64,000 nucleotides of DNA. Origin: Gammaproteobacteria bacterium (GTDB lineage Bacteria; Pseudomonadota; Gammaproteobacteria; SZUA-140). The stretch covers positions 1-64,000 of the forward strand of contig JAKISP010000006.1 of the NCBI GenBank assembly GCA_021648525.1, in the 5' to 3' direction. Position 1 is the first letter of the stretch. Every line of letters begins with the position of its first letter. The translations under genes were made by a program, and so were the position numbers. Below, piece after piece: positions 19,875 to 25,003 of the stretch. A model generated the notes under the pieces. That model worked only from the letters and a program-made list of their open reading frames with translations, searched no databases and was not told where the DNA came from.

Positions 19875-20510
19875 TTAAGAGCTGCCTTCGAGTTTGATCA
19901 AATGATTGATCGCTTTGATCACCCCCGGAAAGCCCTGTTTACCCATGCCGGTGTCGATGCGGTATTTACCGTTGACAATCACGGTTGGGGTGCCTTGAAT
20001 GCCATATTTTCGGGCGAACAGCTGGACACGGCGGACCTTGCTGTTAACACTAAAAGAGTTAAAGGTTTTGCGAAAGTCATCATTGCTAATGCCGTGTTCA
20101 GCAAAGAAGTCCATCAGCTTTTTTTCGCTATTCAGGCGACGTTTTTCATTGTGGATGGCTTCAAAAAAAGGCATGTGAATCTCTTCCAGCTTGCCAAGGG
20201 CCTGGGCGGTAAAGAAGGCGCGGGCATGGATTGCCCAATTTGGATTCAGGATAACCGGGATGCGAATAAACTCAACATTGTCTGGTTGGGTTTTCAACCA
20301 ACGATCAAGGTGTACCTGAAAGCGATGGCAGTGTGGGCAGCCGTACCAGAACATCTCAATGACTTCGATCTTGCCGCTGCTTTTCATCGGCGGTTGCGCC
20401 GGTTGTACTAGTTGGTAGTTGACCCCCTCTGTCACTGGGCCTGCAGCATGTGTCGTGGGGATAAAGGCAATAAACAGGAGTGGGATCAGGCTTGCTAACA
20501 CGCTTTTCAT
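19875..20510 (-). CDS. dsbA: Thiol:disulfide interchange protein DsbA
   Basis: The 211-residue periplasmic oxidoreductase introduces disulfide bonds into exported proteins, which suits a type II secreting organism. It has a signal peptide (cleaved near THAA), the thioredoxin-fold active site CPHC in FWYGCPHCHRF near 60, the inserted helical domain, and the cis-proline loop GIQGTPTVIVNG near 170. The ATG at 20510 is chosen because GAGGTG lies just upstream; the longer TTG start at 20528 is unlikely. It is monocistronic, divergent from the MITE and the second cNMP gene. Confidence 0.94.
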   Translation of the reverse strand: MKSVLASLIPLLFIAFIPTTHAAGPVTEGVNYQLVQPAQPPMKSSGKIEVIEMFWYGCPHCHRFQVHLDRWLKTQPDNVEFIRIPVILNPNWAIHARAFFTAQALGKLEEIHMPFFEAIHNEKRRLNSEKKLMDFFAEHGISNDDFRKTFNSFSVNSKVRRVQLFARKYGIQGTPTVIVNGKYRIDTGMGKQGFPGVIKAINHLIKLEGSS

Positions 20511-20679
20511 CGGTGGCACCTCAGTCAATATCGGGAAATTTGTATTTGAAATTGTATGGTTATTATTTAGAGAGATTAGCTCTCAGTGATACCTAAGACT
20601 ATTCAAGTTTCGATTTATACGCAATAACCAGAGTGAATTTATCGGTGTTTAATGATGAATGAGGTATCATGCATCATAC

Positions 20680-21406: not shown

Positions 21407-22033
21407 ATGATGCCTGAGCCGAACCACCCCTATCGCCGTGCCACCTTTATGTTGAGTGTGGCATCGCTTTCTCAGTTGCCAGATGACGAGGGGGCTGAGG
21501 TGGCGATTGTGGGACGCTCCAATGCGGGCAAATCGAGTGCGATCAATACCATTACCGGGATTAACGCGCTGGCACGTACCAGCAAAACACCAGGGCGCAC
21601 TCAGCAGATCAATTATTTTGAGATTGCTGATGAGCGTCGCCTGGCAGATCTGCCAGGGTATGGCTATGCCAAAGTGCCACTCAGCACCAAACAAAAATGG
21701 ATGAAGTTGATCGAAGATTACTTTCAGACCCGTCAGTCCTTGAAGGGGTTGATTATTGTAATGGATTGTCGTCGTCCGCTGCAGGAACTCGATTGTCAGT
21801 TGCTGGCCTGGTGCCGTGAGGCGAAGATGCCGGTTCATCTACTGCTGACCAAAGCGGATAAGTTGAGCCGTGGCGCCGCAGGCAATATGTTGCAAGCGGT
21901 GCGCCGAGATGTTGCTAAGGATTTTAATGCCGAGGGCGATCAGGAGATCTCGATGCAGCTTTTTTCATCATTGAAAAAGGTGGGGATTGATGAGGCGCAT
22001 GCCTGTCTGGATGGTTGGTTGAAGCCTGGGTAG
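21407..22033 (+). CDS. engB: Ribosome biogenesis GTPase EngB (YihA/YsxC)
   Basis: The 208-residue GTPase is needed for 50S subunit assembly. G1 is GRSNAGKSS near 37, G3 is DLPGYGYAKV near 81 and G4 is LLTKADKLS near 147; the segment SKTPGRTQQINYF is the family-specific switch I. It is convergent with polA, the arrangement found across gammaproteobacteria where a small RNA gene lies between them. Confidence 0.95.
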   Translation: MMPEPNHPYRRATFMLSVASLSQLPDDEGAEVAIVGRSNAGKSSAINTITGINALARTSKTPGRTQQINYFEIADERRLADLPGYGYAKVPLSTKQKWMKLIEDYFQTRQSLKGLIIVMDCRRPLQELDCQLLAWCREAKMPVHLLLTKADKLSRGAAGNMLQAVRRDVAKDFNAEGDQEISMQLFSSLKKVGIDEAHACLDGWLKPG

Positions 22034-22042
22034 AAAATTGAG

Positions 22043-22172
22043 GATAAAAAAATCCCCGGTTATTTTAGAGAGAGGGAGGGAATAACCGGGGTTAAAATTC
22101 ATACTCAGCCTGGGGTGGCTGAGTAAGAAGGGGCCACTCAGGGAGGCTGAGTGGTTGTGTCCAAAGACACAC
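22043..22172 (-). ncRNA. Candidate small regulatory RNA between polA and engB (Spot 42/ErsA locus)
   Basis: On the minus strand four hairpins follow each other: stem TGTGTC/GACACA (22171-22156); CCACTCAG/CTGAGTGG with loop CCTCC (22154-22134); ACTCAGCC/GGCTGAGT with loop ACCCCA (22124-22103); then an 11-bp stem CCCCGGTTATT/AATAACCGGGG with a pyrimidine loop (CCCTCCCTCTCTCTAA) at 22091-22054, closed by seven T residues (a strong Rho-independent terminator, to 22043). All loops are C-rich and the second equals an anti-Shine-Dalgarno core. Spot 42 in enterobacteria and ErsA in Pseudomonas occupy the same place, on the polA strand. The 5' end near 22172 and the promoter are guesses; part could be the polA 3' UTR. 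Confidence 0.7.
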
Positions 22173-22279
22173 TTGTAAAGTAAGACGGCCAATGTTTGAA
22201 AAAGTTCAGCTTTTTTTAATCTTTTTTCGAAAAAAACTTAAAAAAGGTCATTTTTCTTCCAAATTACGCTAATTTCACC

Positions 22280-25003
22280 TTAATGTGCCTCATCCCAGTT
22301 GATTCCATCACCGATATCGACCACTAACGGGACTGCAAGCCTGGCGGCATCTGTCATGCAGCTGCGGATGCCATCTCTGGCGGCCGCTAGTTGATTTTCC
22401 GCAACCTCAAAAACGAGCTCATCGTGTACCTGCATCACCATTGTCACATCGATCGAATCATTTTCAAGCCATGCCGCAGTTTTTAGCATCGCTAGTTTGA
22501 TAATGTCCGCGGCGCTGCCCTGCATCGGTGCGTTGATCGCAGCGCGTTCGGCGTACTGACGGCGTTGTGCATTGCGTGCGCTGATCTCAGGCAGATAGAG
22601 GCGGCGACCGAAGAGGGTCTCGACATAACCGTCGGCCCTGGCTGTTTCACGCATGCGGTCCATGTAGGAGAGCACGCCGGGGTAACGGCTGAAATAGAGG
22701 TCGATATACTCCTGCGCCTCTTTGCGGCCCACGCCGAGCTGTTTGGCGAGGCCAAAGGCGGACATGCCGTAGATCAGGCCGAAGTTGATCGCCTTGGCGC
22801 GGCGGCGCTGCTCCGAGGTAACACTAATCGGCATTGTGTTGAAGATCTCGGCGGCGGTGGCGCTGTGGATATCATCACCGCGCTGGAAGGCGTCGAGCAG
22901 GCCAGCATCCCCTGAAAGGTGCGCCATAATGCGTAGCTCGATCTGTGAATAATCGGCCGCGACGATGATTTTACCCTTAGGGGCGATAAAGGCCTGGCGA
23001 ATGCGTCGTCCCTCTTTGTTGCGGATTGGGATGTTTTGCAGATTGGGGTTGCTGGATGAGAGTCGCCCGGTGGCGGTTACCGCCTGGTGGTATGAGGTGT
23101 GAACACGGCCAGTTTTGGGGTGGATCTGTTTGGGCAGTTTGTCGGTATAGGTCGATTTGAGTTTACTCATGCCGCGATGTTCGAGAATCAACTTTGGCAG
23201 CGGGTAGTCGAGCGCTAGCTCTTGCAAGACCTCTTCAGCCGTCGATGGCTGTCCTTTCGGGGTCTTCTTTATAATAGGTAGCTGCTGTTTCTCAAACAGA
23301 ATCTCCTGAATCTGTTTGGGTGAACTGAGGTTGAATTCCTGTTCAGCGACAATAAAGGCCTCTTGTTCGATCTGCTGCATCCGCTCGCTTAGCTCGCCAC
23401 TCTGAATGTTGAGCATCTCGGCGTCGACTAACACGCCGTGGTATTCCATGCTGGCGAGGATCGGCAGTAGTGGTAACTCAATGTCATTAAATAGCTTGTG
23501 CAGTGCCTTGTCACCTTCGACCTGCGGCCATAGTTTTTGATGCAATTGCAGGGTGATGTCGGCATCTTCGGCGGCGTAGGGCGATGCAGTCTCAAGCGGC
23601 ACCTGATTAAAGGTGATCTGTTTCGCCCCCTTTCCGGCAACATCCTCGTAGTGGATGGTCTCCACACCAAGGTGGTTTTTCGCTAGTGAACCCATATCGT
23701 GGCGCGAGGCGGTGCTGTTGAGTACGTATGATTCGAGCATCGTGTCAAACGCAATACCACGTAGCTGGATGCCATAATTGAGCAATACATTGGTGTCGTA
23801 TTTGAGATTCTGCCCGACTTTTTTGCGCGCTTCATCTTCAAGTAGCGGGCGTAGCTGTTCGAGAACAGTGGTGCGATCGAGTTGCGCTGGGGCATCTTCG
23901 TAGTCATGGGCGAGCGGTACGTAGGCGGCAGCACCCGCTTCGGTGGCAAACGAGACGCCGACAATTTCAGCTTCAATATAATCGAGACTGGTGGTCTCAG
24001 TATCAAACGAAAACAGTTCGGCGCTGTTTAGCTGAGTGATCCATTTATCCAGCGAGGCCTGGTCGAGAATGGTGTCGTAGTGGCATTCAATTGGGGTAGG
24101 TGTTTCTGTTTCGCTTGCTGAGGATTGATCTGAAGACGCGTCATGTTCAAGCTCATCCAGCCAGCGTTTGAATTCCAGTTGCTGAAACAGTTCGCGTAGC
24201 GCATCAATATCGGCTGGTTGTGTCTGCAGTGTCTCGGGTGTTTCGGCGAGCGGTACATCAAGTTTGATGGTGGTGAGCTGGCGCGAGAGTGGTAGCTGTG
24301 CCATGTTGGCGCGGAATTTTTCGCCAATCTTGCCCTTGATGGTCTCGGCCTGGTTGATGATCTCATCGAGCGAGCCATACTGGGTAAACCATTTAACCGC
24401 CGTTTTGGGGCCAACACCAGGGATGCCGGGGATGTTGTCAGAGGTATCGCCAATCAGCGCTAGATAGTCGATGATCTGCTCTGGTGGCAGGCCAAACTTT
24501 TCGATCACACCAGCACGATCGAGTTTCTTGTTGTTCATGGTATTGACCAGCGAGATATGTTCATTGACTAGCTGAGCCATATCTTTATCGCCGGTCGAGA
24601 TCACGCTACGAATTCCACTTGCGGCCGCTTGTTGAGCCAGTGTGCCGATGACATCATCGGCCTCAACCCCTGCTTCGACGATACACGGTAACCCCATGGC
24701 GCGCACCACGGCATGTAGTGGCTCGATCTGCGTGCGCAGTTCGTCCGGCATCGGAGGGCGGTTTGCTTTGTACTGATCAAACATCTCGTCACGAAAGGTC
24801 TTGCCTTTGGCATCAAATACGACCGCAACATAGTCTGGACTATATTCATCGATCAACGTGCGCAGCATATTAATCACGCCGTAGATTGCGCCGGTTGCCT
24901 GCCCCTGCGAGTTGGTCAGCGGTGGCATCGCATGGAAGGCACGATAAAGATAAGAAGAGCCGTCGATCAAGATCAGCAGTTTGCTAGTGGTGTTTTTAGT
25001 CAT
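22280..25003 (-). CDS. polA: DNA polymerase I
   Basis: The 907-residue enzyme removes RNA primers and fills gaps in lagging-strand synthesis and repair. All three domains are intact: the 5'-3' exonuclease (ILIDGSSYLYRAFHAMPPLT, VEADDVIGTLA, IPGVGPKTAVKW), the proofreading 3'-5' exonuclease (FSFDTETTSLD near 345) and the polymerase (motif A AADYSQIELRIMAH, motif B RRRAKAINFGLIYGMSAFG, motif C QVHDELVFEV). The length is as in other gammaproteobacteria. The 3' side holds the candidate small RNA; the 5' side is divergent from a LOG remnant. Confidence 0.97.
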   Translation of the reverse strand: MTKNTTSKLLILIDGSSYLYRAFHAMPPLTNSQGQATGAIYGVINMLRTLIDEYSPDYVAVVFDAKGKTFRDEMFDQYKANRPPMPDELRTQIEPLHAVVRAMGLPCIVEAGVEADDVIGTLAQQAAASGIRSVISTGDKDMAQLVNEHISLVNTMNNKKLDRAGVIEKFGLPPEQIIDYLALIGDTSDNIPGIPGVGPKTAVKWFTQYGSLDEIINQAETIKGKIGEKFRANMAQLPLSRQLTTIKLDVPLAETPETLQTQPADIDALRELFQQLEFKRWLDELEHDASSDQSSASETETPTPIECHYDTILDQASLDKWITQLNSAELFSFDTETTSLDYIEAEIVGVSFATEAGAAAYVPLAHDYEDAPAQLDRTTVLEQLRPLLEDEARKKVGQNLKYDTNVLLNYGIQLRGIAFDTMLESYVLNSTASRHDMGSLAKNHLGVETIHYEDVAGKGAKQITFNQVPLETASPYAAEDADITLQLHQKLWPQVEGDKALHKLFNDIELPLLPILASMEYHGVLVDAEMLNIQSGELSERMQQIEQEAFIVAEQEFNLSSPKQIQEILFEKQQLPIIKKTPKGQPSTAEEVLQELALDYPLPKLILEHRGMSKLKSTYTDKLPKQIHPKTGRVHTSYHQAVTATGRLSSSNPNLQNIPIRNKEGRRIRQAFIAPKGKIIVAADYSQIELRIMAHLSGDAGLLDAFQRGDDIHSATAAEIFNTMPISVTSEQRRRAKAINFGLIYGMSAFGLAKQLGVGRKEAQEYIDLYFSRYPGVLSYMDRMRETARADGYVETLFGRRLYLPEISARNAQRRQYAERAAINAPMQGSAADIIKLAMLKTAAWLENDSIDVTMVMQVHDELVFEVAENQLAAARDGIRSCMTDAARLAVPLVVDIGDGINWDEAH

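Follow-up and report, generated by a model that had tools for sequence, protein, structure and literature searches.

The DNA analyzed here, a stretch of 64,000 nucleotides (hereafter the window), carries between polA and engB what, judged from its sequence, is a real, free-standing, non-coding small-RNA gene with its own promoter and intrinsic terminator. The RNA is ordinary in kind and undescribed so far. Most probably (we put the probability at about 0.78) it is a trans-acting regulatory small RNA of the ErsA, sX13 and anti-hemB type, which is induced by envelope stress and base-pairs through its loops with G-rich Shine-Dalgarno regions.

The RNA gene, its promoter and its neighbours

The RNA gene occupies 22046..22174 on the minus strand (approximately 129 nt), with the 5' end predicted near 22174 and the 3' end formed by the T-run. 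An earlier note on this DNA had described four consecutive hairpins on the polA strand, the last of them a terminator, and the fold bears this out with coordinates that were exact nearly to the base: the minimum free energy of the minus strand of 22041-22178 is -54.1 kcal/mol versus a mean of -26.1 kcal/mol for shuffled sequences (z = -8.1), and none of 200 shuffles folded to as low an energy. The same note had called each loop C-rich, which is correct for three of the four loops but not for hairpin 1 (22156..22171, minus strand), the loop of which is UUUG; the 5' segment of this hairpin is kept within the genus. Hairpin 2 (22134..22154, minus strand) presents the anti-Shine-Dalgarno loop CCUCC at 22146-22142, the family form of which is CCUCCC, and hairpin 3 (22098..22129, minus strand) presents ACCCCA at 22116-22111, with UCCCCAA as the family form. 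The terminator (22046..22091, minus strand) consists of an 11-bp stem (22091-22054), a C-rich 16-nt loop, CCCUCCCUCUCUCUAA, at 22080-22065, and a T-run at 22052-22046. The plus strand of the same interval also folds strongly; the T-run and the promoter are present on the minus strand only. A small protein encoded inside the RNA, comparable to SpfP of Spot 42, is unsupported, since the reading frames shift among members of the genus.

A putative ECF/sigma-E-type promoter, conserved in the genus, precedes the RNA at 22181..22207 on the minus strand, with GAACTT at 22207-22202, a spacer of 15 nt and GTCTTA at 22186-22181. Just upstream of the -35 element, an A/T-tract region (22208..22235, minus strand) might, from its sequence, act as an UP element. 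A sigma-70-like promoter was sought in 21900-22400, and none was found. When 69 post-polA gaps of other Gammaproteobacteria were scanned, the promoter motif was present in 15 in the sense direction, in 1 in antisense and in about 0.1 in shuffles, and per base it was approximately 40 times more common in post-polA gaps than in the rest of the same loci on the same strand. Of 36 held-out family members, 24 are preceded by a looser form of the motif (antisense, 0; shuffles, 0.48; other windows, 10 of 2214). In the genome from which the window comes, there are five further exact matches, of which at least three are within coding sequence, and a reversed control pattern is more frequent; the motif alone is thus unspecific genome-wide, and its conserved position is what counts. 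The motif and this conservation suggest that an ECF-type promoter would drive the RNA. This genome also encodes RpoE (321.6 bits) and Hfq (102.8 bits), and upstream of rpoE lies GAACCA-N15-GTCGTA, with spacing identical to that of the RNA promoter. It is a lead, taken from these motifs, that one sigma factor, RpoE, may read both promoters.

The upstream neighbour, polA (DNA polymerase I; 22280..25003, minus strand; Pfam DNA_pol_A), is on the same strand as the RNA. The downstream neighbour is the convergent engB (ysxC/yihA, ribosome-biogenesis GTPase; 21407..22033, plus strand; Pfam MMR_HSR1), which is named from its position and its homology to the gene at the same position in many loci. On the strand opposite to engB, the 3' end of the RNA lies 13 nt past the stop codon of that gene. 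Read-through of engB (22034-22180, plus strand) would give a 3' UTR perfectly antisense to the whole small RNA, a possible sponge. Close to engB there is also a gene for a DsbA-family thioredoxin (19875-20528, minus strand; Pfam DSBA), so that an envelope protein-folding gene is nearby.

A family across Gammaproteobacteria

Searched for at the DNA level, the gap was recovered from six further members of the genus and, with a weak match, from one further genus of the same family. The earlier note had expected the stems to recur in relatives; they are kept, together with the loops, in all seven genomes of the genus with a readable interval (the window's own included), and they covary class-wide. 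Post-polA gaps were read in 80 contigs, and many lineages share a layout of promoter, 5' hairpin, CCUCCC hairpin, CCCC hairpin and terminator with a C-rich loop. Among terminators that follow two hairpins, at least two of the three loops were C-rich in 33 of 46 cases in the sense direction after polA, versus 2 of 56 and 1 of 53 elsewhere on the same contigs.

We built a covariance model, R2, from 17 sequences from such gaps, none of them from Pseudomonas, with the structure set by hand on the rows that were in register. The covariation in this training set exceeds that of every shuffle on all measures except the number of pair types, which was reached by 42 of 500 shuffles. Within the 64 kb of the window, the sole match to R2 is 22157-22046 (96.3 bits); class-wide, R2 matches 165 of the 276 genomes searched. 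The RNA lies at most 2 kb downstream of polA in 48 of the 80 matching genomes that were checked, and in 47 it is on the polA strand. In several other genomes the RNA adjoins engB and polA is absent there, and some copies are located elsewhere with the promoter retained. The cultured species Thiohalobacter thiocyanaticus (L033) and Pleionea sediminis (L056) are among the carriers of the family. In an alignment of 38 non-training sequences, which was fitted to R2 and is thus biased toward the model, and in which a few rows come from second copies or near relatives of loci used for training, 95.1% of the cells across three helices are paired (32-54% in slid controls); 19 of the 22 pairs are changed on both sides, with 127 double-change cells as against 25 in shuffles. 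The loops are better conserved than the stems in hairpin 2 (1.35 versus 0.94 bits) and hairpin 3 (1.45 versus 1.02 bits), which is the signature of loops that bind something. The conserved promoter, the covariation, the near-invariant loops and the post-polA position in many genomes bear out the earlier proposal of a small RNA in this orientation.

Some genomes carry tandem arrays of two to five copies after polA (L012:3633-4172, L063:613-1056, L191:2150-2886, L192:2059-2976 and L190:2079-2802), within which the stems differ and the loops are similar; the genomes with tandem copies include G174 and G267. In two other genera of the family (loci L095, L096, L101 and L008), polA and the main RNA are separated by a second, different unit that resembles a small RNA; it has a GAACTT-type promoter of its own, ends in a terminator like ATCCCGGCAATCATCCCCGTTGCCGGGATTTTT and scores only 18-26 bits with R2. 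The first unit ends 330 nt after polA in L095 and 247 nt after polA in L096. Furthermore, paired short copies that score above the anti-hemB cutoff were observed away from polA, approximately 1.5 kb from tmRNA (L187:2617-2886 and L188:2512-2783), and these keep a GAAACTT...GTCTTA promoter.

Possible mode of action

The anti-Shine-Dalgarno idea of the earlier note is backed by the same conserved features that support the small RNA, and the capping of ribosome sites by the loops may be inferred by analogy. For sX13 to repress an mRNA, its C-rich loops are needed and so are G-rich motifs close to the start codon, but not Hfq (PMC3771888). ErsA is sigma-22-dependent, pairs with the ribosome-binding site of algC and uses Hfq (PMC5819304, PMC6321483, PMC8575079); Hfq dependence thus differs between the analogues.

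An alternative possibility is that the interval is only a terminator region for polA and, on the other strand, for engB, in which the hairpins stop convergent transcription and have no regulatory role. The genes are convergent, the gap is short, the plus strand folds as well, and the stem could act in polA read-through. However, termination does not call for additional hairpins whose stems covary and whose C-rich loops are fixed. A conserved promoter lies between polA and the hairpins, copies away from polA keep both promoter and fold, and tandem copies exist as well. We therefore consider this explanation improbable. Control of the neighbouring genes, either by an RNA antisense to engB that acts in cis or by a product of the polA 3' UTR, seems more improbable still: an engB read-through transcript would be fully complementary, given the 3' end so close to the engB stop codon, but many genomes have the RNA apart from one or both genes, and the neighbours change while the loops do not.

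Another explanation is that the RNA is a sponge, the C-rich loops of which would titrate some other RNA or a protein, perhaps as an Hfq- or ribosome-related decoy, instead of acting on many mRNAs. Titration would be in keeping with the repeated C-rich loops and the tandem copies, and CCUCC is a copy of the motif in the anti-Shine-Dalgarno sequence of 16S rRNA. Nevertheless, our analysis gave no evidence for a protein site, and the best-studied relatives act directly on mRNAs (PMC3771888, PMC6321483), so that we regard a sponge as unlikely, if the least so of these alternatives.

For the preferred reading, a trans-acting regulator of mRNAs, the course of events would be as follows. RpoE would switch the RNA on under envelope stress, and the loops CCUCC(C), CCCC and CCCUCCCUCUCUC would bind by base pairing to G-rich Shine-Dalgarno regions in several mRNAs, possibly with the assistance of Hfq. 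Such pairing would block ribosome binding and lower the synthesis of the respective proteins, and the three loops are probably separate or cooperating binding sites. The pattern AGGGAGG-N3-10-ATG occurs 14 times in the window's own genome and 8 times for a reversed control, a modest excess, and no conserved target set emerged. Matches include genes for a tail-tube protein, a pterin dehydratase, a CopB-like protein and an Fe-S protein; with so small an excess over the control, we do not claim them as targets. The hfq mRNA, a target of sX13, is unsupported as a target here, because its leader has AAGGAG and no G-run.

Relation to known small RNAs of the polA locus

The Rfam search recommended by the earlier note gave no known family at its cutoff in the whole window, but there were matches below cutoff. 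The best is anti-hemB (RF02837; ncS04/Bc7 of Burkholderia), with 34 bits and E = 1.9e-6 against a cutoff of 49.5, and the ErsA model gave 28 bits and E = 0.001-0.003 against a cutoff of 50 bits. The sX13 model (RF02232) gave no match at E <= 0.01 in the window's genome and did not reach its 50-bit cutoff. Thus, the window RNA fails the formal cutoffs of ErsA, sX13 and anti-hemB, yet it shares features with all three.

The earlier note had placed Spot 42 and ErsA in exactly this interval and orientation, with sequences unlike the present one. For Spot 42 (spf of Escherichia coli), the shared locus is correct: it lies between polA and yihA/engB in the same orientation, and its terminator has a GCCCC stem. 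Kinship is unsupported, however, since Spot 42 is without the C-rich loops, and R2 scores it at 16.6 bits, which is noise (an unrelated E. coli site in 156 kb reached 17.5 bits). Even with a threshold as loose as E = 5, the Rfam Spot 42 model does not match the interval.

For ErsA (Pseudomon-1, RF01719, of Pseudomonas), locus and orientation were likewise correct, but the idea of a wholly different sequence needs revision, because the ErsA model detects the window RNA below its cutoff and R2 detects ErsA. The window RNA resembles ErsA in length, in having a C-rich terminator loop and a C-rich hairpin loop and, as far as the motif and its conservation tell, in its ECF-type promoter (sigma-22 for ErsA), and it too lies directly after polA on the same strand, convergent with engB; true ErsA at locus L059 is arranged in the same way. 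Rfam recognizes true ErsA at this position in L088, L059 and G166, and R2 finds all three with 24-32 bits. Sub-threshold matches of the ErsA model fall on R2 sites in 15 of 22 genomes, the window included. In contrast, the ErsA of Pseudomonas oligotrophica (L088) has a fold without the CCUCCC hairpin, and its CUCC stretch is in a differently folded part.

With sX13 of Xanthomonadaceae, which lies after polA and has three C-rich apical loops (CCCC, CCCC and CCCCC; PMC3771888), the window RNA shares the position and the three stem-loops with C-rich apical loops. R2 finds true sX13 in three genomes, each time after polA, with 24.6-27.9 bits, and no further R2 match was found at the ErsA and sX13 loci. 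In these three genomes, however, sX13 has no GAACTT-type promoter directly upstream, and it also differs in that it is reported to be Hfq-independent (PMC3771888).

The CCUCCC loop and the terminator of anti-hemB align with those of the window RNA. Although anti-hemB is named after hemB, the window RNA is not opposite hemB and has polA and engB as neighbours; our literature search found no established function for anti-hemB. Of the Rfam models, that of anti-hemB scores best at 19 of 20 R2 loci; it matches 156 of 276 genomes, the stronger matches being mostly at R2 coordinates; it is above cutoff in 15. It also matches some control genomes below cutoff, including E. coli, and weak matches are thus unspecific. 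The tandem array of G174 (L191), after polA and beside engB, is matched by the ErsA, sX13 and anti-hemB models. A C-rich loop is likewise present in PmaR of Agrobacterium, but this RNA is confined to Agrobacterium and a close relative, and we rejected it as kin of the window RNA.

Together, ErsA, sX13, anti-hemB and the window RNA look like one superfamily. Common descent is the simplest reading, although it leaves some residual room for the C-rich loops and GC-rich terminators having arisen by convergence. On balance, we favour the view that the four RNAs descend from one ancient polA/engB-linked small RNA of Gammaproteobacteria (in the GTDB sense, including Burkholderiales): a class-wide and mostly envelope-stress-controlled RNA with three anti-Shine-Dalgarno loops, present in approximately half of the genomes or more, in tandem arrays in some, and unrecognized outside the three named lineages. 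The 2013 study of sX13 asked whether the polA locus elsewhere encodes such RNAs (PMC3771888), and for much of Gammaproteobacteria the answer is yes. A working covariance model is now at hand, and the fixed parts can be named, i.e., the CCUCCC and UCCCCAA loops and the GAACTT...GTC promoter. We suggest that the three separately named small-RNA families be studied as one, and the knowledge of targets and mechanism from ErsA and sX13 would then be testable in hundreds of lineages as yet unstudied.
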